Below are positions 25,501 to 51,372 of a stretch of DNA of 53,288 nucleotides, piece after piece (positions within the stretch are counted from its first letter, which is position 1; each line of letters begins with the position of its first letter). The translations under genes and the position numbers were made by a program. The stretch comes from Candidatus Borkfalkia faecavium. GTDB taxonomy: Bacteria > Bacillota > Clostridia > Christensenellales > Borkfalkiaceae. The DNA is taken from NCBI GenBank assembly GCA_019114755.1, contig DXEW01000031.1, positions 1 through 53,288 of the forward strand, in the 5' to 3' direction. Under the pieces are notes generated by a model, which did no database searches, was not told where the DNA came from, and saw nothing but the letters and a program-made list of their open reading frames with translations.

Positions 25501-25716
25501 ATTCACGCGTTCCTCGGCGAGCTGACGCCTGCGGAACGCCGTGATTTGAGGAACACCCCGCTGTCCGCCCATTGGGCGGCGCAGCCGGAGTTTTCCTCTT
25601 CGCGCGGCTTTTGGGGGCACACCTTTATCAAATGCCGCGCAAATTCACCTTTCCTGCATAAGCCTTACGGCAAATTGGGTGCGCTGGCGCAAAAGCGCGG
25701 TTTTGCTTGCGCGAGG
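25501..25716 (-). repeat. Composite hairpin element, copy C1
   Basis: Reads on the minus strand: hairpin A (GCAAAACCGCGCTTTTGC), block B (CCCAATTTGCCGTAAGGC.. to AGGAAAGGTGAA), hairpin C (TTTGCGCGGC / GCCGCGCGAA around ATAAAGGTGTGCCCCC), hairpin D (ends CGGACAGCGGGG) and hairpin E (25501-25545, loop GTCAGC). It ends 18 bp before the rarA start codon, next to its ribosome binding site. Confidence 0.8.
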
Positions 25717-25728
25717 ATTATTTTCAGA

Positions 25729-25831
25729 GATCCTTCGGTGCGCGCGGCTCTGCCGCGCTTACTCAGGATGACAGAAAGGAGACGTGCGCCCCTCTTCCGT
25801 CCTGCGTACCGCAGGACACCTTCCCCCAAGG
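25729..25831 (+). repeat. GATCCTTCG repeat plus CCCTCTTCCGTC repeat
   Basis: GATCCTTCGG...CTCAGGATGACA (25729-25772) with a CGCGCGGC/GCCGCGC centre, followed by CCCTCTTCCGTC, centre CCTGCGTACCGCAGG, CACCTTCCCCCAAGGGGGAAGG (25791-25831). Confidence 0.65.
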
Positions 25832-25917
25832 GGGAAGGCAAGAACAGGCGCCCGCACCCTCTGCAAAATGTCCGCTCCTGCGCGCTCGCGCGCGGGATAG
25901 GGACTAACCCCCTATCT

Positions 25918-26147
25918 CTCCAAACACTCAAAAAAGGAAAAATCACACTTTTTCCTTTTTTCCCCTGCGAGTATACGGATGAGGGTGAATGCGGCGCGAT
26001 TTTATAAAAGGTGTGCCCCTAAATATCGCGCCGCAGAGGGGTGAAACCGCCGCCAACACGGCGCGCAAAATTGCGCGACGAGCGCATGGCAGGTTTCCCC
26101 CTTCCTCTCGACGATTTGTTTTGTCATCTCAAAACAAATCGTGAGAA
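25918..26147 (+). repeat. Composite hairpin element, copy C2
   Basis: Same order of blocks as C1 but with a different A hairpin (AAAAAGGAAAAAT / CTTTTTCCTTTTT), block B GTATACGGATGAGGGTGAA, hairpin C GCGGCGCGAT / ATCGCGCCGC around ATAAAAGGTGTGCCCC, then GAAACCG and hairpin E (26106-26145). Closest to C5. It abuts the stop of the sugar-transferase gene. The 668-bp gap 25484-26151 holds only repeats. Confidence 0.8.
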
Positions 26148-26151
26148 CTCT

Positions 26152-26985
26152 CTATCTCCTTCTAAAATTCTCCCTGTCGACGGCCTCTTGCGCTTTGCGG
26201 CGCAGGCGCTCTTTTTCTTCTTCGGCAAAGGCGGCGTATTCTGCTTCCGAGATCTTCCCTTCGCGCAGCAGATAATCGAGATAGCGCCATTGCCCGCAGA
26301 CGCCCAGGTTGTCGCCTTCGCCCCGGCAATGGGCGGCGAAAGCGGAACAGAAGAACACCGCGTCGCGCAGCAGGGAGAAGTGCGCGGCGTATTCGGCGTC
26401 TTCTTCAAACATGTCGTCAAAGGTCAGCTTTTTGCCCCCGTAGCGGGCAAGCGAACTCACGAGCCCCGGCCGCACCGCAAAGCGGGCGCGCTGCTCCCCG
26501 GTGAGGGCGGCGGCGTCGGCGGGGAGCATGGGGCGGGGGCCGACGAAGCTCATCTTCCCCAAAAATACGGCGGGCAGCGCCGTATACCAGCGCATGCCGC
26601 AGGCGCGGCATACCCTGCCCAGCGGCGTGGTGCGCGCGGATACGGGCAGCGGCAGGCCGCCTTCGTCGTATGCCGTGCGCTCGCAGCGCAGCAGCACGAG
26701 GCGGAAGGCCTTCCCCTTTTTGCCGTACACGTCCATCCCTTCAAACAGGGTAAAGCCCTCTTCTTTCCTGTAAATAAAGAAAGATACGAGCAGAAAGAGG
26801 GCGAAAAATGGCAAAAAAGCCGCCAGAAAGGCGACGGAAAAGAGTATATCGAGCAGGCGCTTGCCCAGCCAGCGATAGTTGAGCGCCAACAGTAGCACCA
26901 GCACGCACACGTCCGCGATCGCCCATACGGCGACGCCCGCGGGCGTGTTCCAAAACGCCACAAAGGCAGACACGAGCAGCTCCAT
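26152..26985 (-). CDS. Bacterial sugar-transferase-like protein, active-site dyad absent
   Basis: 277 residues from ATG 26985 (GGGAG ten bases before). Two or three N-terminal membrane segments precede a PglC/WcaJ-type monotopic phosphoglycosyl transferase domain. SFVGPRPML and the later VRPGL...YGGKKLTFDDMFEEDAEY match the family (usual SFVGPRP, RPGITG.....L....ER.E.D..Y). Where members have SLDELPQL with the catalytic Asp-Glu, this protein has GMRWYTAL, so both acids are missing. It may be inactive, changed in role, or a subunit. It starts 36 bp after the engB stop. Confidence 0.75.
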   Translation of the reverse strand: MELLVSAFVAFWNTPAGVAVWAIADVCVLVLLLALNYRWLGKRLLDILFSVAFLAAFLPFFALFLLVSFFIYRKEEGFTLFEGMDVYGKKGKAFRLVLLRCERTAYDEGGLPLPVSARTTPLGRVCRACGMRWYTALPAVFLGKMSFVGPRPMLPADAAALTGEQRARFAVRPGLVSSLARYGGKKLTFDDMFEEDAEYAAHFSLLRDAVFFCSAFAAHCRGEGDNLGVCGQWRYLDYLLREGKISEAEYAAFAEEEKERLRRKAQEAVDRENFRRR

Positions 26986-27020
26986 GATGATCATTCTCCC
27001 ACTAAAACCTGTCGGAAAGG

Positions 27021-27629
27021 CTATTCCTCTCCGCTTTCTTCTTCGTCTTCTGCGGCGGCGTTCTCGCACACGCGGGCGATCTCGGCAAGCACCGCATCTT
27101 TGCCGAAGCCCGTCTGATTGGAGACGGCGATGACGTTCCCCTCCCCCGTAGACAGGGCGGCGGCGAGGGCGCGCACGGCGGCCTTGACGCGCGTTTTGCC
27201 CAGCTTGTCCGCCTTGGTGGCGACGACGGTGAAGGGAATGCGCCGCGCATAGAGGAATTCGATCATCGTCTTGTCGTCGGCGGAGGGCGGATGGCGCAGG
27301 TCAACGAGGGCGAACACATGCGCGATGGCGCTCTCTTGGGCGAAGAAGTCGTCTAACAGCCGCGCCCAGCGCTGTTTTTCCGCCGCCGACACGCGCGCGA
27401 AGCCGTAGCCGGGCAGGTCGGCGAGCACGAAGCCGTCAAACTGAAAATAGTTGACGAGGCGCGTCCGCCCCGGTTCCGCCGAAGCGCGCGCCAGCTTTTT
27501 TTGGTTGGCGAGCATGTTGATGAACGAGCTTTTGCCCACGTTCGAGCGGCCGCTGACGGCGATGACGGGCTGCTCCGTCTGCAAAAAGCCCTTTTTATCC
27601 GCCGCCGAAGTCAAAAATCTGGCTTGCAT
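27021..27629 (-). CDS. engB: Ribosome biogenesis GTPase YsxC/EngB
   Basis: Essential GTPase in late 50S assembly. 202 residues from ATG 27629 (CGGAGA eight bases before); the open frame extends further up but that part is repeat-derived. G1 GRSNVGKS (27-34), G3 DLPGYG (71-76) and G4 TKADK (about 137) are intact. The tail is acidic (AAAEDEEESGEE). It follows lon in transcription order, as the lon-engB pair does in Bacillus and many Clostridia. Confidence 0.94.
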   Translation of the reverse strand: MQARFLTSAADKKGFLQTEQPVIAVSGRSNVGKSSFINMLANQKKLARASAEPGRTRLVNYFQFDGFVLADLPGYGFARVSAAEKQRWARLLDDFFAQESAIAHVFALVDLRHPPSADDKTMIEFLYARRIPFTVVATKADKLGKTRVKAAVRALAAALSTGEGNVIAVSNQTGFGKDAVLAEIARVCENAAAEDEEESGEE

Positions 27630-27691
27630 GGGTTTCTCCGTTGTGTTTTTTTGAAGTCGGAAAGAGGCACAGGCCGAGCGCCCGCCTCTTT

Positions 27692-27740
27692 CAAATGTAA
27701 AATGTAGAATGGTAAATTGCGGATACAATAAAAATAATAC
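27692..27740. repeat. TGTAAAATG element, partial copy T4
   Basis: One arm AAATGTAAAATGTAGAATGG with the centre GCGGATACAATAAAAATAAT, matching the left half of T1-T3. The other arm is missing and composite element C3 begins directly after. Confidence 0.6.
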
Positions 27741-27952
27741 TCGCGCAAGCAAAATCACATTTTTGCGCCCGCGCACCCAATTTGCCGTAAGGCTCTTGCA
27801 GGAAAGGTGAATTTGCGCGGCGTTTATAAACGAGAGCCCCTAAACCGCCGCGCAAAGAGGAAAACTCCGGCTACTCCGCCCAACGGGCGGACAGCGGGGT
27901 TGTCCTCAAATCTCGACGATTTGTTTTGTCAGCTCAAAACAAATCGAGAACA
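27741..27952 (+). repeat. Composite hairpin element, copy C3
   Basis: GCGCAAGCAAAA...TTTTGCGC (A), CCCAATTTGCCGTAAGGCTC (B), TTTGCGCGGCG/CCGCCGCGCAAA around TTATAAACGAGAGCCCC (C), GGCTACTCCGCCC/GGGCGGACAGC (D), and E (27911-27949, arms CGATTTGTTTTG/CAAAACAAATCG). E ends eight bases from the lon stop codon. Confidence 0.82.
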
Positions 27953-27956
27953 ACTT

Positions 27957-30275
27957 TTAGATCCCCACGATCGCATTCTCGAACACTTCGCCCACGTCGG
28001 CGACGGGGATGAAGTGCAGCTGATCGCGCACGGCGGCGGGGATCTCTTCTTCGTCCTTCTGATTGTCTTTGGGGATGATGATGTTTTTGATGCCGATGCG
28101 GTGGGCGGCGAGCGACTTTTCTTTCAAGCCGCCGATGGGCAGCACCTTGCCGCGCAGGGTGATCTCGCCGGTCATGGCCACGTCTTTGCGGACGGGCTTA
28201 TGGGTAAAGGCGGAGAGGATGGCGGTGGCCATGGTGATGCCGGCGCTGGGGCCGTCCTTCGGGGTAGCGCCCTCGGGCACATGGATGTGGATATCCGTTT
28301 CGGCAAAGGCGTCGGGCGCGATGCCGTAGCGCTCGGCGTGGGCGCGGATATAGCTGATGGCGGCGCGGGCAGATTCCTTCATCACCTCGCCCAGCTTGCC
28401 GGTGAGCAGTATTTCGCCCTTGCCGGGCATGGCGGAGACCTCGATGGTCAGGGTGGTGCCGCCGAACGCCGTCCAGGCAAGGCCGGTGGCGGCGCCAACT
28501 TCGTTGCCTTCCAGCCCGGACTTATCCTCGCTGTAACGGCGCACGCCCAGCAGCTCTTCTACCTCCGCCGCGGTGACGACCTGCTTGGGCAGCTCCCTGT
28601 CTTCGGCATAGCGCACGGCGATCTTGCGGCAGACGGAGCCGATCTGCCGCTCTAAACTGCGCACGCCCGCCTCCATCGTGTAGCCCTCGATGATGGCGGT
28701 GACGGCGCTCGGCTCGATCTCCAAAATTTCCGGTTTGAGGCCGTTTTCGGCGATCTTTTTGGGAATGAGATAGCGGGAGGCGATCTCGCACTTTTCTTCC
28801 AGCGTATAGCCGTTGAGCTCGATGAGCTCCATGCGGTCCAGCAAGGGGGCGGGGATGGTATCGACGGTGTTCGCGGTGGTGATGAACAGCACCTTGGAAA
28901 GGTCGTACGGCACCTCTAAAAAGCGGTCGCGGAAGGAAGAATTCTGCTCGGGGTCGAGCACTTCCAACAGGGCGCTGGCGGGGTCGCCGCGCATATCGGA
29001 AGAGACTTTATCGATCTCGTCCAGCAAAAACACGGGGTTGATCGTGCCCGCCTGGCGCATGGCGTAGATGATGCGCCCGGGGATGGCGCCCACATAGGTG
29101 CGGCGATGGCCGCGGATCTCGGCTTCGTCTTTGACGCCGCCCAGGCTCATGCGCACAAAGTTCCTGCCCAGCGCCCGCGCCACAGACTTGGCGATAGACG
29201 TTTTGCCCACGCCGGGAGGGCCGACGAAGCAGAGGATGGGCGCGTTCATGCTCTTTGTCAGCTGCAATACCGCCAGGTATTCGGTGATGCGCGTTTTGAC
29301 CTTTTCCAACCCGTAATGGTCTGCATCGAGCACCTCGCGGGCGGCGGAAAGGCTTTCGGTATCCTTGCTCTCTTCCGTCCACGGCAGGTCGATCAGCCAG
29401 TCGAGATAGTTGCGGATGACGGTGTATTCGGGCGAGGACGGGGGCATCTTGTCGGTACGGGCGAGCTCTTTGAGCGCCTTTTCCTCTATTTCGGCGGGCA
29501 TGTGCCTGGCCTTGATCTTTTCGGTCAGCTCGTCGCGCTCTTCCGCGTCGTCGCCCAGCTCGGAATGGATGGCCTTAAGCTGTTCGCGCAGGAAGTATTC
29601 CTTCTGGTTTTTATCGATGTTCTTGCGCACGGTGGCGCTGATCTTTTTTTCCAGCCGCGCGATCTCCAGCTCGTCGTTCAAACAGCGCTCGAACAGCTTG
29701 AGCCGCTCGACCACGCCCGCCGTCTCCAAGATCTTCTGCTTGACCTCTTCGCGGATATGCAGAAAGGTGAGGGCGCTGCCGATGTAGGCGTCGGGATCGG
29801 AAATATTTTCCAGCGCGGCGGCGGCCTCTTTGGAAAAGCGCATGTCGGCGGCCTGGATGTCGCGCATCACGTCTTGCGCGGTGCGGAAATACGCCTCTTC
29901 CAGCACGGGGTCGCCGTGCACCGCCTTGAGCTCGTACACGTTGGCGTACAGGCAGCCGTCCTCTTCATACACCTCTTCCGCCTTGGCGCGGTACAGCCCC
30001 TGCACGGACAGGCGCAGGTTCCCCGTAGGCAGCTTGGCGATCTGCTTGATGCGCACCACCGTGCCCACGGCGCAAACGTCGGCGGGGGTGATCTCTTCTT
30101 TGGAAGCGTCTTTCTGCAGGGCGACGAACAGCGTCATTTCCCGCTCGGAGGCGCGCGAAACGGCGGTCAGGGAGATGAGCCTGCCCGCATCGAATGTATT
30201 GGCGGTATCGGGGAAGATGACCTTCCCGCGCAGCGATACCAGCGGATAATTGACCAGTTTTTTTGTTTTCGGCAT
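27957..30275 (-). CDS. lon: ATP-dependent protease Lon
   Basis: Cytosolic AAA+ protease of damaged and regulatory proteins. 772 residues from ATG 30275 (GAGGAA six bases before). The N-terminal substrate domain ([17 protein letters not shown]) precedes a coiled coil, Walker A GPPGVGKT (about 352-359) and Walker B FLLDEIDK. The C-terminal protease domain has the Ser-Lys dyad in PKDGPSAG (about Ser675) and [10 protein letters not shown] (about Lys718). Two promoter cores lie upstream. No CIRCE or CtsR site is visible, so heat control, if any, uses another route. Confidence 0.96.
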
Positions 30276-30354
30276 AAGGTTCCTCGGTATAAGACAGACA
30301 GACGCCACTCCGCCGCGCACGGCGCGGCAAGGGCACATTCCTATCCTTGCAGAC

Positions 30355-30434
30355 AGTATAGCACAAACGCCGCAGCCAAAAACCGCGGCTCGTATTTTCC
30401 CTTACAGTATAGCACAAACGCCGCCGATTTACAA
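30355..30434 (-). promoter_or_regulatory. Tandem promoters of lon
   Basis: A 19-20 bp sequence CGGCGTTTGTGCTATACTGT occurs twice on the minus strand, with -10s at 30406-30411 and 30355-30360, each an extended -10 (TGCTATACT). The distal one has TTGTAA (30429-30434) at 17 bp. The duplication gives two start points 51 bp apart. Confidence 0.65.
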
Positions 30435-30470
30435 GCCAATTTGCAAAGATACCGGCATTACCCGGCATGC

Positions 30471-30499
30471 AAAAACGGCCCCGCGGCATTTGCCGCGGG
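30471..30499 (-). terminator. Intrinsic terminator after the 231-aa membrane protein gene
   Basis: Minus strand CCCGCGGCA / TGCCGCGGG stem (30491-30499 with 30480-30488), followed by GGCCGTTTTTGC. Confidence 0.65.
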
Positions 30500-30548
30500 A
30501 CGCGAATTCTTTTATTTCTGCTCCCCTTGCGGGGGCGGGTTGCCCTTT

Positions 30549-31244
30549 TCAATACAGCACGGCGTTCGAGTCTTGGTCGATGCTGAACAGGGGCGGCGCT
30601 TCCCCTTCCCCCTCGACGACGCTGACGTTGACCAGCTTGCCCACCGTTAAATTTTCGATACATTTATCTTCCATCCACGCCGTGCGCGAGAGCACCCGTT
30701 CGCCCCCCTTTCCGTCAATGCGGATGGTCAGTCTGACCTCGGAGCAGCCGTTTTCCTCTTCTCCCGTCAAGCACAGGTCGGTCAGCATCGCCCTATATCG
30801 AACGCCCTTAGTGCGCAGAAGGGCGCGCTGCTCGCTAGTAAACCCGCGCGGGTTGCGCAAAGACGCAAAGCGCTCAAACCGCTCTTGCAGGGCATCGTCG
30901 GCGACGGGGGCGGTGTCGACGACACCGAGCTTGCTCTCCGGGTCGTAGCGGATGGGGAAGAGAGAACCTTCCCGCAGCTTAGAAAGTTCCGTCATCGGCA
31001 CGATCTGCTTTACCTGCACGGGCTCCGTTCTCCCGTCTTCTTGGAGGGCTTCAAATCTCAAGAGAAGTTCGGGCTGTTCGTTGACGTACAGCCCCGTATT
31101 CTGCGCGCCGCGCAGGATACCGATGGTGCGCTCGGTAAAGTTCTTTTTTTTGCCCCTGTTCTTCCGGATGCTATGCAGCGAAACGGCGACTACGATCACG
31201 GCAATGGCGACGGGCAGCGCCCATGAGAGCACATCTGTCCACAT
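30549..31244 (-). CDS. Membrane-anchored hypothetical protein, 231 aa
   Basis: One N-terminal membrane segment (about 6-23, LSWALPVAIAVIVVAVSL), a basic stop-transfer patch KNRGKKKN, then a cytoplasmic beta-rich domain with two similar halves (about 38-115 and 145-230), each with a strand pattern like TGLYVNEQPELLLRFEAL. No motif is recognised. AGGAGA precedes the ATG. Its own promoter is at 31300-31328 and its terminator at 30471, so it is a single-gene unit between thiN and lon. Confidence 0.72.
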   Translation of the reverse strand: MWTDVLSWALPVAIAVIVVAVSLHSIRKNRGKKKNFTERTIGILRGAQNTGLYVNEQPELLLRFEALQEDGRTEPVQVKQIVPMTELSKLREGSLFPIRYDPESKLGVVDTAPVADDALQERFERFASLRNPRGFTSEQRALLRTKGVRYRAMLTDLCLTGEEENGCSEVRLTIRIDGKGGERVLSRTAWMEDKCIENLTVGKLVNVSVVEGEGEAPPLFSIDQDSNAVLY

Positions 31245-31299
31245 ATTCCTTTTTTCTCCTCTCTCTATGATTTAATAGAACATACCCCCGTGCATTGTT

Positions 31300-31328
31300 A
31301 TTATACCATGCAAAGGAAGGCAAGGCAA
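31300..31328 (-). promoter_or_regulatory. Promoter of the 231-aa membrane protein gene
   Basis: Minus strand TTGCCT (31323-31328), 17-bp spacer, TATAAT (31300-31305). Just upstream are two direct copies of TTGTAATAAAA (31348-31369). A hairpin CCCCGCAG/CTGCGGGG (31393-31420) lies between this promoter and thiN. Confidence 0.7.
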
Positions 31329-31537
31329 CCGCGCGGCGGGGAAAGCGTTGTAATAAAATTGTAATAAAACACACTGCAAGCGCATAGCAAGACCCCGCAG
31401 GGCAAAACGCTTCTGCGGGGCGAGACTTTTCTTTGGTCAGTGAAATTTTTCTTTTGTATAGGAAGGTCAGCCGCCCGTGCGGCAGGCGAGGCGCAGCAGC
31501 GCCCGCACCGCGAGCGGCGGCCGGATGCAGATGATGG

Positions 31538-32149
31538 CTACCACTTTGCTTCCCTCCGCACTTCAAACACGAAGAGCGTACCCGCGTCGCAGACAATAGA
31601 TGCCTCTTCCGCCTCGACGACGTTGCTGATGCCGCGGCAGCTGCCGGCGGTGAGCGTGAGGTCGGAGAGCGGGTACTTGAGCCCTTCACTCTCTATGATA
31701 TGCGCACGGCGGCCGACGGGTGCCAGCGAAACCGTTTTGCCGCGCATGCCGCGCCAGTAAATTTTGCCCTCGGCGCAGTAGACGTCGCAATGGTTGGAGC
31801 GCATCACCGTGCGCGCCCCGCGCAGAAAGCCCGCGTAGCACAGCTGCAGGTTGCCGAAGAGGTGGTCTTCTCTGCCGCCGCCCCCGCCGTAAATTTCAAT
31901 GACGTCGCAGCCGCGGGCGAGCAAAAGGTCTAAGGCGATCTCGCCGTCGGTAAAGTTTTTTTCTACGGGATACACCTGCGCGTTTTGGGGCACATAGCCG
32001 AGCGAATCGAAATCGCCCGCGCACAGGTCGATGCGCACCTTGCCCTGCGCCCAGCGCAGCGCGCCGTCGCAGCAGACGGTGAGCGCGTCTTTATCGTCGA
32101 TTTGATCCTGAAACGGTTCCCCGTTCAATAAGATGATGCCCCGCCTCAT
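31538..32149 (-). CDS. thiN: Thiamine diphosphokinase
   Basis: Adds pyrophosphate from ATP to thiamine to make ThDP, the cofactor of the IlvB enzyme in this window among others. 203 residues. The N-terminal catalytic motif AGDFDS (44-49) and KNFTDGEIAL are typical, with GGGGGREDH for nucleotide binding; a beta-rich C-terminal domain binds thiamine. Its start overlaps the rpe stop by four bases (ATGA), so they are translationally coupled. Confidence 0.92.
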   Translation of the reverse strand: MRRGIILLNGEPFQDQIDDKDALTVCCDGALRWAQGKVRIDLCAGDFDSLGYVPQNAQVYPVEKNFTDGEIALDLLLARGCDVIEIYGGGGGREDHLFGNLQLCYAGFLRGARTVMRSNHCDVYCAEGKIYWRGMRGKTVSLAPVGRRAHIIESEGLKYPLSDLTLTAGSCRGISNVVEAEEASIVCDAGTLFVFEVRREAKW

Positions 32150-32805
32150 CGGATATCCCTCAGATTTTGAATGGTCTTTGCCATATCGGGCGCGTGGAAC
32201 ACGGTGCTGCCCGCCACGATGACGTTGACGCCCGCCGCCTTGACGGAGGCGACGTTTTCTTCGGTGATGCCGCCGTCCATCTCGATATCGCGCTCTAAAC
32301 CCGTCTTTTCAAAGAAATTGCGCGCCTCTTCCGCCTTGGCGAGGGTGCGCTCGATGAGTTTTTGCCCGCCGCGGCCGGGGTACACGCTCATCACCAGCAG
32401 CATATCGAACAGTTCCGCGTATTCGGCGACGGCGGCAAAGGGGGTATCGGGGCTGATGGCGACGCCCGCACGGATGCCGTACGAGCGGATGAAGCGCAGC
32501 GTGTCTTTGAGGGCGTCGCCGCACGCCTCGGCGTGGACGGTGACGATGTCTGCCCCGGCGTTGACGATGTCGCTGACTTTATTGAGCGGGCGCACGCACA
32601 TGATGTGCACGTCCAGCGGCAGCGAGGTGTGGCGGCGCACCGCCTCGATCATGTGCATGCCGAAGGTGATGGTGGGAACGAAGGTGCCGTCCATCACGTC
32701 GCAGTGGATGAGGTCGGCGCCGCAGCGCTCCAGCCGCTCTACCTCTTCTCCCATTTTGGAAAAGTCCGCCGCCAAAATAGACGGCGCGATCTTGATCTTT
32801 TTCAT
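32146..32805 (-). CDS. rpe: Ribulose-phosphate 3-epimerase
   Basis: Pentose-phosphate enzyme interconverting ribulose-5-P and xylulose-5-P. 219 residues, the normal length of this TIM barrel. SILAADFSKM, the metal/acid motif HCDVMDG, DIHIMCVRP and the second catalytic Asp in EMDGGITEENV are all present. In other Firmicutes rsgA lies just before rpe; here it does not. Its promoter is at 32868-32896. Confidence 0.95.
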   Translation of the reverse strand: MKKIKIAPSILAADFSKMGEEVERLERCGADLIHCDVMDGTFVPTITFGMHMIEAVRRHTSLPLDVHIMCVRPLNKVSDIVNAGADIVTVHAEACGDALKDTLRFIRSYGIRAGVAISPDTPFAAVAEYAELFDMLLVMSVYPGRGGQKLIERTLAKAEEARNFFEKTGLERDIEMDGGITEENVASVKAAGVNVIVAGSTVFHAPDMAKTIQNLRDIR

Positions 32806-32867
32806 AAGCCCACCCCTTTATAAGATGAAAGGCGCCCCCGCCGGGAAGCGCCCCTGCCTGTGATATA

Positions 32868-32896: not shown

Positions 32897-33014
32897 GCCT
32901 TGCGGGGAAAAAGTGGGAGAAGGAAAGGGCGGCGCGGCCCCGCCCCCGCGCAGCCGATCCGCCTCTTTCAAACAAACGATGAAAGGGCGCGCGGCAAAGC
33001 CGCGCGCCCCCTCC

Positions 33015-33059
33015 CTCACGGAAAATTCTTTTGTCGGCACAAAAGAATTTTCCGTGAAC
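33015..33059. repeat. Solo E-type hairpin
   Basis: CTCACG, then a perfect 15-bp stem GGAAAATTCTTTTGT / ACAAAAGAATTTTCC with loop CGGC, then GTGAAC. It lies 18 bp past the rlmN stop and has no T-run on either strand. It matches the terminal hairpin of the composite elements. Confidence 0.8.
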
Positions 33060-33076
33060 CGTGAATTGCGCGCACA

Positions 33077-35343: not shown

Positions 35344-35359
35344 GGCTTTATACCTCCGG

Positions 35360-35395: not shown

Positions 35396-35432
35396 CCCTT
35401 TTTTTTCCGCGCAGTCGAACGGGTCTCATCCA

Positions 35433-35539
35433 AATGTAGAATGTAGAATGTAAAATGTAAAATTCAGGATATATTCAAAAAAATATTTGATACGCCATCC
35501 AAAATTTACCATTTTGCATTTTACACTTTACATTTATTT
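35433..35539. repeat. TGTAAAATG inverted-repeat element, copy T3
   Basis: The left arm is repeated TGTAGAATG/TGTAAAATG units (35433-35463), the centre is CAGGATATATTCAAAAAAATATTT, and the right arm ATTTTGCATTTTACACTTTACATTT. It is followed by a GATCCCTCG...CGGGATGACA short repeat (35573-35602). Confidence 0.7.
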
Positions 35540-35621: not shown

Positions 35622-35838
35622 TCGCGCAAGCAAAACCACGCTTTTGCGCCCGCGCACCCAATTTGCTGTAAAGCTCTTGCAGGAAAGGTGAATTTGCGCG
35701 GCGTTTATAAACGAGAGCCCTTAAATTGCCGCGCAAAGAGGAAAACTCCGGCTGCTCCGCGCCAAAAGCGCGGACAGCGGGGTTGTCTTCCTCTCACGGA
35801 AAATCGCAGGCGTCAGCTCGCCGAGATTTTCGTGAACC
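35622..35838 (+). repeat. Composite hairpin element, copy C4
   Basis: Blocks A-E as in C3, about 85-90 percent identical by eye in A-C. D differs (CCGCGCCAAAAGCGCGG) and E has arms GGAAAATC..GGCG / CGCC..GATTTTCG around TCAGCT (35793-35837). A GATCCTTCG-type repeat follows (35848-35879). The 568-bp gap 35344-35911 holds no gene. Confidence 0.82.
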
Positions 35839-37433: not shown

Positions 37434-37454
37434 GTATCGATTCCTCCTCTCCCC

Positions 37455-41317: not shown

Positions 41318-45881
<4,564 letters not shown>

Positions 45882-45939
45882 GTGTATCCCTGTACTTTCC
45901 GCGGAAACGCCGCGCCTTTCGCTTTGTAAAACCTGCCCT

Positions 45940-45968
45940 ATTATACCACAAACGGCGGCGGGGGGCAA
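45940..45968 (-). promoter_or_regulatory. Promoter of pcrA-ligA
   Basis: Minus strand TTGCCC (45963-45968), 17-bp spacer, TATAAT (45940-45945) with TG extension. Confidence 0.75.
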
Positions 45969-46031
45969 CCAAAAGGTACGCACCTTGTCAGCCTTTGCAT
46001 CCCTCGTATTCGCGGCGAAAGGCAAAAACGT

Positions 46032-46433
46032 TCAGCCTTTGCGCCCCTCGTATTCGCATTCGCGGCGGAAGCGCTCTAAGGCCTTTAAGTACCGCTCGGA
46101 GAGGGTGAGGGTGTAGCGCTGCTTTTCTTCGTACGAGAGAGAATCGAACACGGCGCGGTCGGTGAGCCGACCGATGGCGTCGGACACCTCGCCCTCGGCG
46201 AGCAGGAGCTGCTTGACCTTCTGGTAGAAGGCGTCGTCATCGCCGCCGCGGATGGTGCAGGTGACCTTGCCGGCAAAATAATGGCCGGCGCGGCTTTCGT
46301 TGACGCCCGCGTCTTTGGCGCGCGCCAGTTCGCCCCGCAGCTCTTCTTTGCAGTTTTCCCAAAAGCCGCTCTTCAAGCGGTTCTTTGCCTCTTTTGCGAT
46401 GCTCTTAAAACTCTTCGGCTGGCTTTTCGGCAT
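46032..46433 (-). CDS. Hypothetical protein, 133 aa, between rpsU and pcrA
   Basis: From ATG 46433 with GGAGG six bases before. The product is soluble, helical and basic (starts MPKSQPKSFKSIAKEAKNRL), with a central CTIRGGDDDAFYQKV and a C-terminal helix pair rich in Arg/Glu. No domain is recognised. The good start signal and full codon structure support a real gene. It follows the rpsU terminator by 30 bp, so its transcript either reads through or starts in the gap. Confidence 0.7.
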   Translation of the reverse strand: MPKSQPKSFKSIAKEAKNRLKSGFWENCKEELRGELARAKDAGVNESRAGHYFAGKVTCTIRGGDDDAFYQKVKQLLLAEGEVSDAIGRLTDRAVFDSLSYEEKQRYTLTLSERYLKALERFRRECEYEGRKG

Positions 46434-46465
46434 ACAAGACCTCCGCAAACGACAAATTTCGCGCA

Positions 46466-46501
46466 AACAAAAAGCCCGCTATCTTGCAATAACAGGCTTT
46501 T
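46466..46501 (-). terminator. Intrinsic terminator after rpsU
   Basis: Minus strand AAAAGCCTGTTAT pairs with ATAGCGGGCTTTT (all 13 pairs, three G-U), loop TGCAAG, then TTTGTTT. Confidence 0.82.
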
Positions 46502-46510
46502 GTATCCGGG

Positions 46511-46690
46511 TTAGTTTTTAGAACTTCTCTTGCGTGCCGCTTCCGACTTCTTCTTTTTGCGCACGGAAGGCTTCTCGTAATGTTCTTTACGGCGAAGATC
46601 TCCGATGATGCCGTCGCGCGAGCACTTCCTCTTGAACCGGCGCAGTGCGCTGTCAATCGACTCGTTTTCTCCGACTCTGATCGTGGACAT
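46511..46690 (-). CDS. rpsU: 30S ribosomal protein S21
   Basis: 59 residues starting [19 protein letters not shown] with the family core [15 protein letters not shown] and a very basic tail ([15 protein letters not shown]). GGAGG stands ten bases before ATG 46690. S21 sits at the mRNA exit region near the anti-Shine-Dalgarno and aids initiation. It has its own promoter (46741-46770) and terminator. Confidence 0.95.
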
Positions 46691-46740
46691 TCCTATCTAC
46701 CCTCCTTCGCCTGACGCAGTTATTTTTTGACAACGCTGAT

Positions 46741-46770
46741 ATTGTAATATAAGAAGGCGCCCGCTGTCAA
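46741..46770 (-). promoter_or_regulatory. Promoter of rpsU
   Basis: Minus strand TTGACA (46765-46770), 18-bp spacer, TACAAT (46741-46746). Confidence 0.78.
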
Positions 46771-46788
46771 GCCATTTGCGGCGGCTTT

Positions 46789-46844
46789 GCGGAAAATTTT
46801 TCAAGGGAAAGGAATGCTCTGCGGAAAATTTTTCAAGGGAAAGG
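46789..46844 (+). repeat. Identical 24-bp direct repeat, period 32
   Basis: GCGGAAAATTTTTCAAGGGA followed by AAGG occurs at 46789-46812 and again at 46821-46844 with no change, 25 bp before the strong promoter at 46869. It may be a protein-binding site pair. Confidence 0.75.
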
Positions 46845-46868
46845 GCGGCCTCTCTCCCCCGCCCCCGC

Positions 46869-46897
46869 TTGACAAATAGCCTGCATACGATTATAAT
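46869..46897 (+). promoter_or_regulatory. Full-consensus promoter of the 533-aa membrane protein gene
   Basis: TTGACA (46869-46874), exactly 17 bp, TATAAT (46892-46897): both hexamers are perfect, so a high basal rate is expected. Confidence 0.9.
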
Positions 46898-46981
46898 ATA
46901 CCTGTCATTTTTTCAGACAAAAAGTGACGCCGCGCCCCCTTTTTACAGACCATACGGGCGGCGCGGAAGGAGAAAATTACC

Positions 46982-48583
46982 ATGGCTAAACACACGATGT
47001 CTGCCGCCGAGCGGCAGGCGCACAAAAAACTGATCGCGCCCAACATCGTCATCACGCTGCTTTGCTGGGCGGCGGCGGTTTCGCTGATCTTATGCCCCTG
47101 GCTGGATATGCGCGTGCCCGTCAACCAAGACTTAGCGGCGGCGGTGGTAGAGGCGATGGGCCCTTCCGCCGACATCGACGAAGACCAGCTGAATTTTATC
47201 GTCAAAGACGTAGATTCCGAAGTCCGCGTCACCCTCTCTCCCCTGCAGCTGTTGGAAGCGGGCACGAGCGAAGGGCGGCAGGGCCTGAAAAATATGCTGG
47301 AAGAGGTGCTCGCCGAGGCGACCTCGACGGTGGACGAGATCGTGCAGCAGGCGCTGCCCGCAGCGCTTTCGACGGCCATCGTCAATACGGTGCTGGAAGA
47401 GCTGCCCGCAGATTTCACCTATGAAGAGGTGGAGATCCCGCAGGAGATGAACGACACCGTCAACAAACTCGCCGAAAAGACGGACCCCGAAGAGATCAAG
47501 ACGGAACTCAAAGGCGACTTTATTTCCGCCGCCGAGAGCTTTGTAGCCCAAAACAGCGCTCTGTTGGGCATCGGCGAACTTTCCGAAGAGGACCGCGCGC
47601 AGCTGGAGAGCATCTTTGAAGAGGCCGTAGACCTGATGACGGTGGACGGGGAATTTTCCCTTTCCAATATCGACAAGGCCATCTCCGAGCTGATGAACAA
47701 CTACGGCGGCTCGCTGGAAGAGAGCGGCATGCAGCCCTTTGCCGTCACCTTTGCCGCCGCGCGCGAGGCGACGAGCGGCAACGCCGCCATCGACTTTATC
47801 CGCGACCCCGGCGCCTATGTAGATTCTTTGAGCGAGACGGACGTGCAGCTGATCAAGGCCGTCTGCCTGTGGACGGCGGTATTCATGCTGTTTATCGCCG
47901 TGCTGTGGGCGATCTTGTCTCTGTTTGCCTTCATCCACATCTTCACCCCCAATAAAAAGGTGGGCATGTGGTATGTGAAGGCGACGGGCTACCTGCCCTG
48001 CCTGCTGTTCGTGATCGCGCCCGCCATCGCCATGACGGCGCTGCCCACCCTGATGCCCGAATTCCCCGCCCTCGGCATCACCTTCGGCGGACTTGTGCTC
48101 ATTTCGGGCGCCTGCTACATCGCCCTGTGGCTGGTTTCCGCCATCTGGTGCCACATCGTGCGCAAGCAGATCGACAAGGCCGCCTATGCCGCCCGCATGA
48201 CCGCAGCGGCAGCCGCCGCGGCCGACGCGGCTGCGCCCGCCCTGGCAGGCGCGCCCGCAGACGAGGTGCCCGCAAACTATGTGCCCGCGGCAGAAAGCGC
48301 GTATGACGCCGCCTATGCGGAAGCGCCCGCCTATACGGAAAGCCCCGCCGCCGAGGCTGTTTATGAACAGGAGCCCGCCGCCCAAGCCTCCGCATACGAG
48401 GCCGCCCCCGCCGAGGCCGCTTACGAAGAAGCGCCCGCGTATGAAGATACGGCCGCCGAAGCGCCCGCAGACGCGGCGCAGGCAGACGGCGCTGCCGATG
48501 GAGAAGCGCCCGCCCCGGCAGACGAACCCGCCGGCGCCTCCGCAGAAACGCCCGCCCCCGCCGACGGCGAAGAAAACAAATGA
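46982..48583 (+). CDS. Membrane protein with large extracytoplasmic domain and Ala/Pro/Glu tail, 533 aa
   Basis: No family recognised. Order: short basic N-terminus, one membrane segment (about 21-42), an acidic helical domain of about 250 residues probably outside the cell (many DEE and LEE runs), then three or four membrane segments (about 295-400) and a cytoplasmic tail of about 130 residues of Ala/Pro/Glu/Tyr repeats (AEAPAY, EEAPAYED). It is the only plus-strand gene among minus-strand neighbours, driven by a perfect promoter, with AGGAG nine bases before the ATG and its own terminator. Likely an abundant envelope protein; the role is unknown. Confidence 0.8.
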   Translation: MAKHTMSAAERQAHKKLIAPNIVITLLCWAAAVSLILCPWLDMRVPVNQDLAAAVVEAMGPSADIDEDQLNFIVKDVDSEVRVTLSPLQLLEAGTSEGRQGLKNMLEEVLAEATSTVDEIVQQALPAALSTAIVNTVLEELPADFTYEEVEIPQEMNDTVNKLAEKTDPEEIKTELKGDFISAAESFVAQNSALLGIGELSEEDRAQLESIFEEAVDLMTVDGEFSLSNIDKAISELMNNYGGSLEESGMQPFAVTFAAAREATSGNAAIDFIRDPGAYVDSLSETDVQLIKAVCLWTAVFMLFIAVLWAILSLFAFIHIFTPNKKVGMWYVKATGYLPCLLFVIAPAIAMTALPTLMPEFPALGITFGGLVLISGACYIALWLVSAIWCHIVRKQIDKAAYAARMTAAAAAAADAAAPALAGAPADEVPANYVPAAESAYDAAYAEAPAYTESPAAEAVYEQEPAAQASAYEAAPAEAAYEEAPAYEDTAAEAPADAAQADGAADGEAPAPADEPAGASAETPAPADGEENK

Positions 48584-48601
48584 TTTTCCGCAAATTAAAT
48601 T

Positions 48602-48636
48602 ACGCGGCGCACCGTTCGGTGCGCCGCGTGTTTTTT
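48602..48636 (+). terminator. Intrinsic terminator
   Basis: Perfect 12-bp stem (48602-48613 with 48618-48629), loop GTTC, then GTTTTTT. Confidence 0.88.
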
Positions 48637-48646
48637 ACACTATGTT

Positions 48647-48690
48647 CTCACGGAAATTTCTTTCGTCAGCACGAAAGAAATTTCGTGAAC
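48647..48690. repeat. Solo E-type hairpin
   Basis: CTCACG, stem GAAATTTCTTTCGT / ACGAAAGAAATTTC with loop CAGC, then GTGAAC. It lies between two converging genes and has no T-run. Confidence 0.8.
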
Positions 48691-48705
48691 TAACTTGCAC
48701 GCCCC

Positions 48706-49506
48706 CTACAGCCACAAAGCGACGCTGTTCAAACTTTCTAAAATACAGGAAGGGGCGTCGGAAGCGGGCAGGGCGGCCGCCTTGGCGGCGTCCGTTTCGC
48801 CGCTCAATACCAAGATCGTGTTGAAGCGGTTGTTGTTGCCGAAGCGGATATCGGTATGCGGCCTGTCGCCCACCATGGTGACGGCCTCGGGCGGCAGGTG
48901 CAGGCGGGCTAGAAGGCGCTCGCCCATCACCGTGTACGGCTTGCCGACGATGACGTCCGGCAGGCGGCCGCTCGAAGTCTGCAACAGGCGGATGAACGAG
49001 CCGACGTCCGGCGGATACACCCCCTCGGCGGGGCAGACGTCGTCGGGGTGGGTGGCGATGTACACCTTCCCCTCGGCGATGAGGCGGTTGGCATTGACCA
49101 GCTTTTGATAGGTGAGTGTGGTGTCGTAGGCGAGCACGCAGATATCCGCGTCTTTTTGTAAACGGATGCCGGCGGCGGCGAATTCGGCTTTGAGCGCGTC
49201 GGTGCCGACGAGATATACCGAGCGCCCGGGGAATTTTTCCTGCAAATACTCGATGGTCGCCATGCCGGAGGTATAGACGAAGTCTTCCGCCGCAAACAGC
49301 CCCAGCCGCTTTAATTTTTGGGCGTATTCCGCCGCCGTTTTGGAAGAATTGTTGGTGCAGTAGACGATCTTTCTGCCCGAAGCGCGGATGGCGGCGAGGG
49401 TGGCGGCCATGTCGCCGATGGGGCGCTCGCCCAGATAGACGGTGCCGTCCATATCCAGCAAAAAGGCGCGGGTGCGCTCCACGAGCGCGCGCGGGTCAGT
49501 ATCCAT
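48706..49506 (-). CDS. HAD-superfamily (NagD/class IIA) sugar or nucleotide phosphatase
   Basis: 266 residues, AGGAGG eight bases before the ATG. HAD motif I FLLDMDGTVYLG (nucleophile Asp and acid Asp), motif II VYCTNNSS, motif III Lys in VGKP and motif IV MVGDRPHTDI are all present. The class IIA cap lies between motifs II and III. Relatives hydrolyse small phosphate esters (4-nitrophenyl phosphate, AMP, UMP, sugar phosphates); the physiological substrate cannot be told. Confidence 0.9.
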   Translation of the reverse strand: MDTDPRALVERTRAFLLDMDGTVYLGERPIGDMAATLAAIRASGRKIVYCTNNSSKTAAEYAQKLKRLGLFAAEDFVYTSGMATIEYLQEKFPGRSVYLVGTDALKAEFAAAGIRLQKDADICVLAYDTTLTYQKLVNANRLIAEGKVYIATHPDDVCPAEGVYPPDVGSFIRLLQTSSGRLPDVIVGKPYTVMGERLLARLHLPPEAVTMVGDRPHTDIRFGNNNRFNTILVLSGETDAAKAAALPASDAPSCILESLNSVALWL

Positions 49507-49529
49507 AGCGTTTTCCTCCTGTGTGCGGC

Positions 49530-49735
49530 GTTTTTTATTTTTGGAAAGGAAGGGCGAGCGGGCTTTTTTGTAAAGGCGCGCCGCTTTTTATTTTTGGGAA
49601 AGTAAGGAAGGGCGGAGTTTTTTTGTAAAGACGCGCCGCCTTTTATTGTTTGGAAAGAAGGGAGCGGCTGCCTTCCCCTTCTATACAGAGACGGGTGAGG
49701 TCTCCTTCCATACAAAAACGGGCGCGGCTCTTTCC
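49530..49735. repeat. Imperfect tandem repeats between the HAD gene and the 441-aa gene
   Basis: Three units of about 55 bp share TTTTTATTTTTGG(G)AAAG..AAGG.AGGGC, a run of six or seven T, then GTAAAG(G/A)CGCGCCGC. They are followed by two or three units of about 27 bp with CTATACAGAGACGGG-type cores. There is no gene in 49507-49739. Confidence 0.6.
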
Positions 49736-49739
49736 CCTT

Positions 49740-51065
49740 CTATACGGAGACGGGCGGAGCGGCGAGGGGCGGCGTGGGCAGAAGCCCCAGTTCGCGTTCG
49801 AGCACGGCGGCCGAAAGGCGGGGCGAAAGCTCGGCGGAAAGGTCGTACAGGCGGGCGAACAGGCCGTCTGCGGGGGCGGGCTGCGCCGGCAGGGTACGGC
49901 ATAAGAGCTCTGCCGAGGCGGCAAGGCGGGCGCGCACTTCTAAAAACCGCTCGGCGAGGGCGAAACTTTCGGCGCCGCGGGGGATATGTACGTTGCGGGC
50001 GACGGCCTTGGCGGAAAGCCCGCTTTCGCGGGCGGCGCGCCAGATGCGCGCGGGGTAATCTGCCACGAAAAAGGGCCTGATCTCCGCCTTTCCGAACAGA
50101 TACAAAAAGCGGCGGGCGAAATAGGCGGCGAGGGCGGGAAGCTGAGGCCGCGGGCACAATTTTGCCGCCCCCAGGCAGGCGAAGGGAGCCCGCCCCTGCA
50201 CTTCGAGCGCGAAGGCGGCGGAGGCGGAAAATTTTTCTTCCGCGCTTTCGGCCGCGGCAAAGGCTTCGGCAATGGCGCGGAAGGGGGCTTCCTCTTCTCG
50301 CTTGCCGAAGGCGCTGCAGATGGCGGCCTCTTCGGCGCATACGCCCGCAAAGCAGGCGAGGGCGGGCGCCTCTTGCAGCAGGGCGGCGTCTGCCAAGATC
50401 ATGTCGGCAGGGGCGAGCGGATAGCCCTGCCACGGGGGCGGAGCGAACGGCGCAAACAGCCCTTCCGCCGCCGTATCGGTGGGGATGAGAAGGGAAAAGG
50501 CGCCGCGTAAGGTAGCAAAAAAGCGCGCCCCCGCAATGCCGCGCGGGCCGATGCCGACGGCGGCGCGGATGTCGTCTGCCAGCGAAAACAGCTGCGTAAA
50601 GTCTCCGCCGATGACGGCGCAGGCGGGGCGGAATTTTTTTAAGGCGACGCGCACCCGCTCCGCCGCCTGCGGCGGGATCGCCTCGTCGATGACAAGCGCC
50701 GCCTTGCCGTAGGGCAAGAGGGCGGAAAGCGCTTCCCCCGCATGCTCGCACGGGCAAAACAGCAGCTGCACCGCCGCCCCCGCGCGGGCGCGGGCCTCTG
50801 CAAACAGATCGGCTTGCTTTGTTTCGTCCTTTTTGAAGCCGCCGTTCTCCAGCGCGCCAGTCTGCATGAACAAGCCGCCGCCGTTCTCCCGCGCGCCGGT
50901 CTGCATGAACAAGCCGCCGCCGTTCTCCCGCGCGCCGGCCTGCATGAACAAGCCGCCGCCGTTCTCCAGCGCGCGGGCCTTAGGAAACAGGTCTCTTTGT
51001 TTGGAACTATCGCTTGTACGATCGCAGGCACGCCCCTGCGCCATCAGATCGGCCATGGCCGTCAC
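49740..51065 (-). CDS. Unrecognised protein with N-terminal 13-residue repeats, 441 aa
   Basis: GAGGT six bases before the ATG. After about 30 residues comes a repeat of the 13-mer TGARENGGGLFMQ, in about 3.6 copies (LENGGGLFMQAGA, RENGGGLFMQTGA twice, LENGG), coded by a 39-bp minisatellite. The rest is Ala-rich with alternating strands and helices: KAALVIDEAIPPQAAERVR and CAVIGGD faintly suggest the nucleotide domain of iron-alcohol-dehydrogenase or dehydroquinate-synthase folds, but no metal-binding triad is seen. Treat as unknown. The reading frame and start are good, and the repeats keep the frame. Confidence 0.65.
   Translation of the reverse strand: MTAMADLMAQGRACDRTSDSSKQRDLFPKARALENGGGLFMQAGARENGGGLFMQTGARENGGGLFMQTGALENGGFKKDETKQADLFAEARARAGAAVQLLFCPCEHAGEALSALLPYGKAALVIDEAIPPQAAERVRVALKKFRPACAVIGGDFTQLFSLADDIRAAVGIGPRGIAGARFFATLRGAFSLLIPTDTAAEGLFAPFAPPPWQGYPLAPADMILADAALLQEAPALACFAGVCAEEAAICSAFGKREEEAPFRAIAEAFAAAESAEEKFSASAAFALEVQGRAPFACLGAAKLCPRPQLPALAAYFARRFLYLFGKAEIRPFFVADYPARIWRAARESGLSAKAVARNVHIPRGAESFALAERFLEVRARLAASAELLCRTLPAQPAPADGLFARLYDLSAELSPRLSAAVLERELGLLPTPPLAAPPVSV
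50840..50985 (-). repeat. 39-bp in-frame minisatellite
   Basis: About 3.6 near-identical 39-bp units inside the 441-aa gene, each CCGCCGTTCTCC(A/C)GCGCGCC..CTGCATGAACAAG on the plus strand. The period is a multiple of three, so changes in copy number keep the frame. Confidence 0.85.
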
Positions 51066-51149
51066 CTCGGAAAAGAATTTTTTAGCTTTACTTTTTTTCT
51101 TTTCTTTGGTGAAACCTTCTCACAATTTCTTTCGAGCTGAAAAATTGAG

Positions 51150-51372
51150 TTCACACAATTTCTTTCGAGCTGACGAAAGAAATTGTCGTGAGGAAGGGGG
51201 AAACCTGTTGTTCGCAGCCTATTCGGCGGCTCTGCAACGGTTTCTCCCCTCGCCGCCGCGCCTTTCAGGGCACACCCTTTATAGGATGCGCGGCGGCTTC
51301 ACCTCCATCCGTATGCTCATAAGGGAAAAAAGGAAAAAGTGTGATTTTTCCTTTTTTTGAGAATTGTTTGGA
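51150..51372 (-). repeat. Composite hairpin element, copy C5
   Basis: On the minus strand: A hairpin AAAAAGGAAAAAT/CTTTTTCCTTTTTT, block B GCATACGGATGGAGGTGAA, hairpin C GCCGCCGCGC/GCGCGGCGG around CTATAAAGGGTGTGCCCTG, GAAACCG, and E (51150-51192, arms ACAATTTCTTTCG/CGAAAGAAATTGT). Closest to C2. A second fragment of E arm (51117-51138) and a piece of blocks A-B (51378-51440) lie beside it. Confidence 0.78.

Follow-up and report, generated by a model that had tools for sequence, protein, structure and literature searches.

The genome of Candidatus Borkfalkia faecavium (1.73 Mb, 89.9% complete) contains a repeat of about 215 bases, composed of hairpins in the fixed order A-B-C-D-E (B in type I copies), which has no coding capacity of its own and whose many copies are dispersed and intergenic. 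The reading we favor, at a probability of about 0.65, is that of a structured repeat, non-autonomous and dispersed over the chromosome, which spreads within species and is reshuffled meanwhile; it is best filed as a combinatorial form of BOX-like non-autonomous structured repeats. Many genomic copies, named in the original prediction as support for it, do exist: two BLAST searches of this genome returned 65 and 60 matches, and a covariance model (R1) found 67.

Copies and pieces in the window

Five copies with one order of blocks had been predicted in the window (the whole 53,288-nt stretch of DNA analysed), and we confirmed both their places and their order, as well as their location in gaps within a run of minus-strand genes. 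They comprise two subtypes: type I, with C1 (25501–25716, minus strand), C3 (27741–27952, plus strand), and C4 (35622–35838, plus strand), and type II, with C2 (25918–26147, plus strand) and C5 (51150–51372, minus strand, A through E). The training set of R1 consisted of 24 type I copies, C1, C3, and C4 among them; C2 and C5 were left out. It matched its training copies in the window at E-values below 1e-46, with A-D of C1 at 25543–25713 (E hairpin at 25503–25544), of C3 at 27742–27912 (E at 27911–27949), and of C4 at 35623–35795 (E at 35794–35835). C2 (A-D 25930–26109; E at ∼26106–26147) and C5 (match at 51188–51436), from outside the training set, were matched at E-values of ∼1e-17. Only C1 to C3 (3/5) abut a gene: the E end of C1 lies ∼19 nt ahead of the start codon of rarA/mgsA (25483), that of C2 ∼5 nt from the stop codon of a sugar transferase gene (26152, minus strand), and that of C3 7 nt from the lon stop codon (27957, minus strand). 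C4 and C5 have no adjoining gene, the nearest to C4 being fmt (stop 35912, minus strand), ∼77 nt past E, and the called start nearest C5 (51056) being ∼94 nt past E.

Pieces of the repeat occur as well. Ahead of C5 lies a truncated type I piece (∼51373–51443, minus strand) that holds A, B, and the beginning of C. TTTTATTCCAAACAATTCTC links this piece to C5 at its 5′ end, and joints resembling this one were found again in other copies of the same genome. In a degenerate copy (32933–33061, plus strand; R1 E-value 0.00088) the E hairpin (33016–33057) is the sole clear part, and this hairpin is ∼20 nt from the stop codon (33077) of an RlmN-like gene. A solitary E hairpin (48648–48688, plus strand) is ∼18 nt from the stop codon (48706) of a HAD hydrolase gene.

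Type I copies have an extra hairpin B (CACC/GGTG), whose 3′ side is formed by the block AGGAAAGGTGAA and whose stem reads CACT/AGTG in some congeners. By eye, the alignments have E flanked by TC...GA(A/G)C, and no clear inverted repeat was seen at the ends of the repeat. As RNA, C3 and C2 fold with z-scores of -6.0 and -8.8, each better than 200 of 200 dinucleotide shuffles. The expectation of no Rfam match was upheld, one search yielding three tRNAs only and another, of 25480–27970, one match (E-value 0.16) outside the copies. Among 129 rows from a home-made ORF caller, no called ORF overlapped a copy by more than 60 nt; mechanical ORFs do overlap copies.

Covariation and whole-hairpin exchange

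The original prediction read the differing but complementary arms as selection on structure. The arms do co-vary: 94.9% of cells were paired as compared to 80.3% in shuffled alignments, slid controls were also far exceeded, cells with double changes numbered 117 versus 41.4 in shuffles, and helix C had double changes at all 10 pairs. The number of pair types (31 versus 30.1 shuffled) does not stand out. The loops and joints are conserved, as had been proposed. However, whole hairpins are exchanged, and wobble asymmetry is clear in hairpin D alone, so the claim of selection stands only in part.

Evidence for exchange comes from the 44 of 70 own-genome copies that could be segmented. These carry 8 alleles in the AB slot, 11 in C, 10 in D, and 10 in E, with 32 C-by-E combinations, and keys based on exact arms gave eight four-gamete quartets among own-genome copies. 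Within type I (23 copies), C and E combine independently, 391 of 2000 shuffles scoring as high, but over all 44 copies they do not (3 of 2000). Hairpins have thus been exchanged between copies of this genome as whole cassettes, combinatorially, and under such exchange arms co-vary without stepwise compensation. What looks like RNA covariation in this bacterial repeat comes at least partly from the swapping of whole hairpins, and caution is necessary in covariation-based RNA discovery.

A strand-symmetric count of GU versus AC pairs, made hairpin by hairpin, gave 89:24 in D, a clear strand asymmetry as expected of RNA, and 8:2 in A, a weak one. Hairpins C (19:14) and E (1:3) are near-pure Watson-Crick with no clear GU excess, a pattern that a DNA-level process would also give; the outer eight pairs of C are all Watson-Crick in 41 of 44 copies and seven of eight are so in the other three. 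Two other counts were set aside: one on model columns (GU 201, AC 41; 128 rows) leans too much on a few columns, and a first simple count (C helix GU 9, AC 4; D outer GU 267, AC 87) was noisy for D.

Polarity, host range, and turnover

The most surprising feature of the family, absent from the original prediction, is that its E end prefers gene boundaries. In 51 of 98 copies, at most 25 nt separate the E end from such a boundary, as compared to 2 of 98 for the A end; under uniform placement, the expectation for E was 2.7 in the own genome (observed 26/49; A, 0/49) and 4.2 in congeners (observed 25/49; A, 2/49). Of 203 copies submitted to classing by a strict E rule, which misplaced E in C4 (counted as start) and C5 (counted as stop), 113 failed the rule, 26 had too short a flank, and 25 belonged to neither class; among the 29 stop-class copies, 24 have E at 1–10 nt from the stop codon, and 10 copies were start-class, ahead of a start codon. 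The neighboring genes are ordinary, diverse, and unrelated (two scans, 10 proteins each), and copies sit in either orientation relative to them. Because one end is placed next to the start or stop codons of unrelated genes, targeted insertion or retention at gene ends can be tested directly.

R1 matches were present in 36 of 40 genomes of the genus, own included, with counts from 0 (4/40) up to at least 70, and the family thins out across the order (23 of 297 genomes). Seven loci in another genus of the family (g26) show the same order of blocks together with the sequence motifs of A, B, and C, but with D shortened. The rarA site is occupied in the own genome and empty at all 29 congener loci; the family turns over, this site being filled here only among the loci compared. 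In a tree of 91 copies, taken as the top matches of a model whose training set included own copies, genome labels need 41 changes versus 61.8 when shuffled (0 of 200 as low), and the 27 own copies need 7 versus 23.4. Among the 13 labels tabled, clustering by genome is clear in G000, G015, and G028, weaker in G008 and G018, and not found in G012 (85 of 500 shuffles as low), G017, G009, G020, G023, G032, G022, and G035, so that it rests on a few genomes. Some positions are shared between species, the asnS 3′ end being occupied in four (own, G012, G063, and G021) and the ylqF 5′ end in G030 and G034, a pattern equally compatible with old retained insertions, with function, or with hot spots. No copies were found in searches of phage, plasmid, and viral sequences; two viral contigs had a 17-base match and neither had a model match. 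Carriage by phages, viral contigs, or plasmids was rejected or weakened. The restriction to a single lineage, taken with these empty searches, does not suggest horizontal spread.

Origin and affinities of the repeat

Given the polarity, one could envision a cis-acting RNA (attenuator, terminator, or 3′-end element) selected at gene ends, the copies being domesticated regulatory parts. The distances of E from stop and start codons would suit such an RNA, as would the conserved loops, the GU excess of hairpin D, the filled asnS 3′ end in four species, and the GNRA tips of hairpin B (25 sense versus 4 antisense in 108 segments). In addition, 12 terminator-like sites were found in 25480–27960 versus 4.3 expected, two within copies (25680–25699, plus strand, inside C1 and antisense to it; 27895–27915, plus strand, inside C3). 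However, most of these sites lie outside the copies, no T-run was seen by eye after E, and the 2.5 kb contain a single, weak promoter-like match. Together with unrelated neighbors in either orientation, the 29 empty rarA loci, and the four genus genomes that lack a match, these observations make this explanation unlikely. A gene-specific switch is ruled against by the diverse neighbors and the empty rarA site. More doubtful again is the idea that pairing is kept by mutation, through template switching at palindromes during replication, in a family that is otherwise neutral debris: the near-pure Watson-Crick C and E hairpins, without clear wobble bias, and the intact outer pairs of C are what it would leave behind, but the wobble bias of D, the polarity to gene ends, and the recurrence of block order and motifs in g26 are not.

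An element of the REP/REPIN type, or one derived from IS200/IS605, with a Y1 (HUH) transposase as its mover would share with our repeat its hairpins, extragenic location, high copy number, inverted neighbors in congeners, and, as in some REPs, proximity to stop codons. We nevertheless consider it highly improbable, as Y1_Tnp had no match in the own genome (89.9% complete), Y1 and element counts over 40 genomes correlate negatively (Spearman -0.36, p 0.02), and inspection of the alignments by eye showed no GT(A/G)G head. Of the 12 genomes with 45 copies or more, 5 have Y1 and 7 lack it; of the 9 with no more than 5 copies, 7 have it. The idea of E as a REP on its own was rejected or weakened: in 175,200 bases (own loci plus window), 24 of 33 E-like hairpins have A-D upstream, and at least four of the other nine are by place inside copies whose loop-C insert escapes the rule, a rule that also overlooks the solitary E at 48648–48688. 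Least probable is a remnant of a guide RNA (omega RNA of TnpB/IscB or bridge RNA of IS110) or a reverse-transcribed RNA; the repeat is of suitable size (∼200 nt), structured, and apparently mobile, but it has no Rfam match, and of the matches to reverse transcriptase RVT_1 (PF00078; 4/40 genus genomes), the TnpB zinc-ribbon (PF07282; 1/40), and the IS110 recombinase (PF02371; 6/40), none is in the own genome. All four mover models tested miss the own genome, which rejects or weakens Y1/REP mobilization, reverse transcription, TnpB, and IS110 as candidates.

Returning to the non-autonomous dispersed repeat, we envision that an enzyme acting in trans would move copies through hairpin-rich single strands or foldback dimers, and that recombination, or template switching over short homologies, would swap hairpins at the conserved joints GTGAA, GAGG, and AAATC. 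Insertions might persist where E can end the neighbor's transcript or precede its ribosome-binding site. A transcribed repeat would be an untranslated structured stretch that, through its position, may influence the neighbor's termination, stability, or translation in the way suggested for REPs and BOX elements, rather than acting as a gene-specific switch. An unlikely further reading is a dedicated hairpin-cassette system, in which an enzyme would recognize the slot joints, swap whole hairpins, and insert E at translation boundaries; were it true, each genome would maintain at its gene ends a pool of structured untranslated regions assembled combinatorially.

That no described MITE has such a plan holds in detail for the literature covered, but the pneumococcal BOX elements are a close kind. 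In the available text of PMC3049150, BOX of Streptococcus pneumoniae is a modular boxA-boxB-boxC intergenic element of 67–637 bp, tabled at 86 sites, with a transcribed form of predicted secondary structure; it is read as a parasitic non-autonomous element and is over-represented between convergent genes. The likeness, drawn by description and not by sequence, lies in modularity, many intergenic copies, and recombined sub-units. BOX as described there varies in unit number (A1B1C1, A1B2C1), whereas ours has five ordered slots with interchangeable hairpins; terminal inverted repeats and target duplications are reported for BOX, while here no clear inverted repeat was seen at the ends and the loci compared offer no near-identical empty site by which a duplication could be defined; and the same text does not mention a polarity like that of E, which here favors gene boundaries. 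REPs, BIMEs, and REPINs are, in the available portions of PMC2817692 and PMC12306157, extragenic high-copy palindromes that form mosaics and inverted doublets, some REPs lying at most 15 nt from a stop codon. Our repeat resembles these in its extragenic palindromes, copy number, mosaic build, and nearness to stop codons, with inverted neighbors in some congener copies, and differs in having a unit of five hairpins (∼215 nt), in lacking their head motif by eye, and in its relation to Y1. The bcr1 element of the Bacillus cereus group is also a short, structured, possibly mobile repeat; its host differs, and it is likened to ours by description alone.

Neighboring copies in congeners form 17 A-to-A pairs (one being overlapping matches) and 32 tandem pairs, and those in the own genome 2 (one overlapping) and 14, respectively. 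The A-to-A neighbors in congeners enclose a short AT-rich center. A promoter before A was considered and not adopted: the 20 nt ahead of A are AT-rich, and five-of-six TATAAT-like matches cluster there at -13 to -9, which holds 83 of the 190 matches over 188 upstream sequences (shuffled total, 126); this pile-up may reflect composition or half of the AT-rich center of dimers.

Anatomy and folding of the copies

The five copies in the window are present, with the shared order of blocks that the original prediction described: C1 (25501-25716, minus strand), C2 (25918-26147, plus), C3 (27741-27952, plus), C4 (35622-35838, plus) and C5 (51150-51372, minus). Hairpin A has the core CAAAA-YCRCRY-TTTTG; in hairpin B of type I copies (C1, C3 and C4) CACC is closed with GGTG, GAA coming next, and type II copies (C2 and C5) are without the CACC arm. 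The loop of hairpin C resembles TTTATAAnnGnGTGCCCCnAAA, hairpin D begins GAGG(A/G)AAAC or a variant, and TC...GA(A/G)C marks the bounds of hairpin E. Folded as RNA, C3 reaches -87.2 kcal/mol, where its shuffles average -60.3 (z -5.99), and C2 reaches -96.9 kcal/mol, where the average is again -60.3 (z -8.83); none of the 200 shuffles of either copy did as well. The absence of a known RNA family also held, as gathering-score Rfam matches in the window were three tRNAs only, and a permissive search of 25480-27970, which contains C1-C3, gave a single match (E 0.16) outside the copies.

Loop C holds an insert in some copies of the same assembly (the own genome), and a recurrent joint there links a truncated piece of type I to the element that follows it. 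In five own copies (contigs C9 ~130, C17 ~88800, C6 ~15780, C5 ~6600 and C2 ~400) the inserts are similar, about 130 nt long and start like ACAAACAGGGCTCCCGAAAATCGC; they could represent one more exchangeable module, or else a mobile repeat distinct from this one.

Copy number, spread and turnover of sites

The expectation of many genomic copies was borne out: BLAST gave 65 own-genome matches with C3 and 60 with C2. We built a covariance model of the A-D part, R1 (170 positions, 33 pairs), from 24 type I training copies, nine own and 15 congener; it recovered all five window copies, including C2 and C5 from outside the training set, together with many further genomic matches, at least 67 of them in the own genome. 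Of the 40 genus genomes, 36 (own counted) have matches, and the number per genome ranges from 0 to at least 70, the high counts being lower bounds since no more than 70 candidates were scored in each. At 1e-5, 23 of 297 genomes sampled from the order match: the own genome and G030 within the genus, 15 from two further genera of the family and six from other families. The class sample yields four matching genomes out of 391, every one of the same family. BLAST with C3 matched the own genome and 31 of 36 congeners, and none of 24 genomes of other families. Seven copies examined in g26, another genus of the family, keep A, B and C and have a much shorter D; by eye, a start codon lies downstream of E at two of these loci (L243 and L247). 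One named contig, from an uncultured Clostridia MAG (L093), carries a copy, and the closest named relatives of the window RarA are mostly uncultured Clostridia MAGs. In phage, plasmid and viral collections no match was confirmed by the model.

At the rarA start, the site of C1, none of 29 congener loci has an R1 element (the start was placed by script in 26); the only two R1 matches in rarA loci both belong to the own locus. In a tree of 91 copies, whose rows are best matches to a model partly trained on own copies, all genome labels required 41 changes against 61.8 when shuffled (0/200 as low), and the 27 own copies required 7 against 23.4 (0/500 as low). The values were 5 against 8.8 for G015 and 2 against 5.0 for G028; clustering was absent for G012 (7 against 7.8; 85/500 shuffles as low) and, with few rows each, for G017, G009, G020, G023, G032, G022 and G035. 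Gene conversion could add to clustering by genome. Some sites are shared: family scans confirm occupation of the asnS 3' end in the own genome, G012, G063 and G021, and of the ylqF 5' end in G030 and G034. Further cases were recognized wholly or partly by eye, namely asnS in G014 and G027, ruvA in G012 and G007, and ftsY in G022 and G011; the G012 gene at the putative ruvA site is RuvA by family scan, the G022 gene, of which 200 residues were scanned, has FtsY as its best match, short of the full-length cut-off, and a second copy at the G027 locus adjoins a RelA/SpoT gene. Sites common to several species may reflect insertions of early date, hot spots or function that has been retained.

Covariation and exchange of hairpins

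The covariation had originally been taken as the mark of selection on structure, and of this the excess of double changes stands. On A3, a sequence-only MAFFT alignment, the given structure pairs 94.9% of cells against 80.3 shuffled (sd 0.9), cells with both sides changed number 117 against 41.4, and slid control structures reach 36-51% pairing; in helix C all ten pairs have double changes. The number of pair types is unremarkable (31 against 30.1). The step from double changes to selection is weakened by whole-hairpin exchange and by a wobble bias found mainly in D. Among 44 of 70 own copies, those segmentable by rule, there are 8 alleles for AB, 11 for C, 10 for D and 10 for E, with 32 C-by-E combinations, and exact arm keys leave 8 four-gamete quartets. 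Within type I (23 copies) C and E combine independently (mutual information 1.441 against 1.320 shuffled; 391/2000 as high); over all 44 they are not (3/2000 as high), because the subtypes keep partly separate hairpin sets. Exchange, counted in the own genome only, may be a source of between-species co-variation too.

Two readings compete here with that of a spreading repeat: a functional cis-acting RNA at gene ends, and pairing kept by mutation, through template switching in palindromes, without selection. A strand-symmetric wobble count over 134 filter-passing copies of 199 distinct matches, in which conserved wobbles inherited by many copies enter repeatedly, gave 117 GU and 43 AC, divided as 89:24 in D, 19:14 in C, 8:2 in A and 1:3 in E. 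This suggests RNA-sense selection on hairpin D and weakly suggests it on hairpin A; for C and E the count lends it no support. Hairpin B has GNRA tips in 25 sense and 4 antisense cases among 108 distinct segments, and GNRA-like loops are favoured by DNA hairpins also. The RNA reading is thus limited because hairpins are exchanged whole between copies and because the wobble asymmetry comes mostly from D.

Placement, mobility and arrangement

The element is polar with respect to genes. Among copies flanked by genes on both sides, a gene boundary is no more than 25 nt from the E end in 26 of 49 own copies (2.7 expected under uniform placement within the same gaps) and in 25 of 49 congener copies (4.2 expected), and from the A end in none and two, respectively; the side closer to a gene is that of E in 39 of 49 own (sign test 3.8e-5) and 37 of 49 congener copies (4.7e-4). 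These counts rest on a home-made ORF caller, with a fixed 44 nt assigned to E, and on 48 of 60 BLAST-fetched own loci plus 78 congener loci, after removal of copies that were in loci under 1500 bases, odd-length, duplicated or lacking a gene on one side or both. Strict placement of E was possible in 90 of 203 copies. It faces an opposite gene's stop codon in 29, the distance being 1-10 nt in 24 of these, and lies ahead of a start in 10; in 25 it does neither, and 26 copies have short flanks. In the window C1, C2 and C3 adjoin a gene, and C4 (~77 nt) and C5 (~94 nt) lie away from one.

The nearest kind are the pneumococcal BOX elements, which excerpts of PMC3049150 present as modular, structured and read as parasitic and non-autonomous; the Borkfalkia repeat is likewise modular and structured. 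In excerpts of PMC2817692 and PMC12306157, REPs have high copy number and form mosaics and doublets, and some are no further than 15 nt from a stop codon, a position in which ribosome stalling is reported; the Borkfalkia repeat resembles them in its copy number and mosaic build, in its A-to-A neighbour pairs, which may correspond to doublets, and in the closeness of some copies to stop codons. It is set apart by its five fixed slots with interchangeable hairpins, by its polarity and by the lack of a Y1 match in its own genome. As predicted, no described element with the same plan appeared among the titles and abstracts of a literature search, subscription journals being mostly outside its scope. 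Models for Y1_Tnp, RVT_1, PF07282 and PF02371 found no mover in the own genome, although, at 89.9% completeness, such a gene was possibly missed. Across the 40 genus genomes Y1_Tnp occurs in 22, and its counts correlate negatively with those of the element (Spearman -0.36, p 0.02): 5 of the 12 genomes rich in copies have it, as do 7 of the 9 poor in them. RVT_1 occurs in four, PF07282 in one and PF02371 in six. We favour, with a probability of about 0.65, a non-autonomous, dispersed structured repeat that spreads within species and is reshuffled. Our confidence is reduced because many genomes are without clustering and because C4 and C5, of the five copies in the window, do not adjoin a gene; a cis-acting RNA and pairing kept by mutation are given slightly more weight.

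Congeners have 17 A-to-A neighbour pairs (one of overlapping matches) and 32 tandem neighbours, the own genome 2 A-to-A (one overlapping) and 14 tandem; nine congener A-to-A pairs are spaced 18-25 nt, and the centre between them is AT-rich and nearly palindromic (TTATTATTTTAATAATCAA in L223, for example). Congener loci L203, L209, L211, L223 and L241 hold A-to-A inverted pairs with an AT-rich centre of 22-25 nt, and in L241 genes at both E ends leave the gap nearly filled. On own contig C11 a tandem array (L018, 255-1685) of ~282-bp period, with three near-full elements and one partial, directly adjoins a tmRNA gene (255-628). Other repeats occur in the window: CACCTTCCCCC...GGGGAAGGCAAG repeats in gaps (19337-19409, 20982-21054 and 25815-25855), apparently a separate family, and CCTTCG...CAGGATG repeats adjoining C1 (25731-25780) and C4 (35853-35895). 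Minisatellite-like ATGTAAAATGTAGAATG runs recur at 19419-19469, 21062-21112, 21273-21308, 27686-27736, 35432-35531 and 51516-51565, and in several own copies they stand just upstream of hairpin A.
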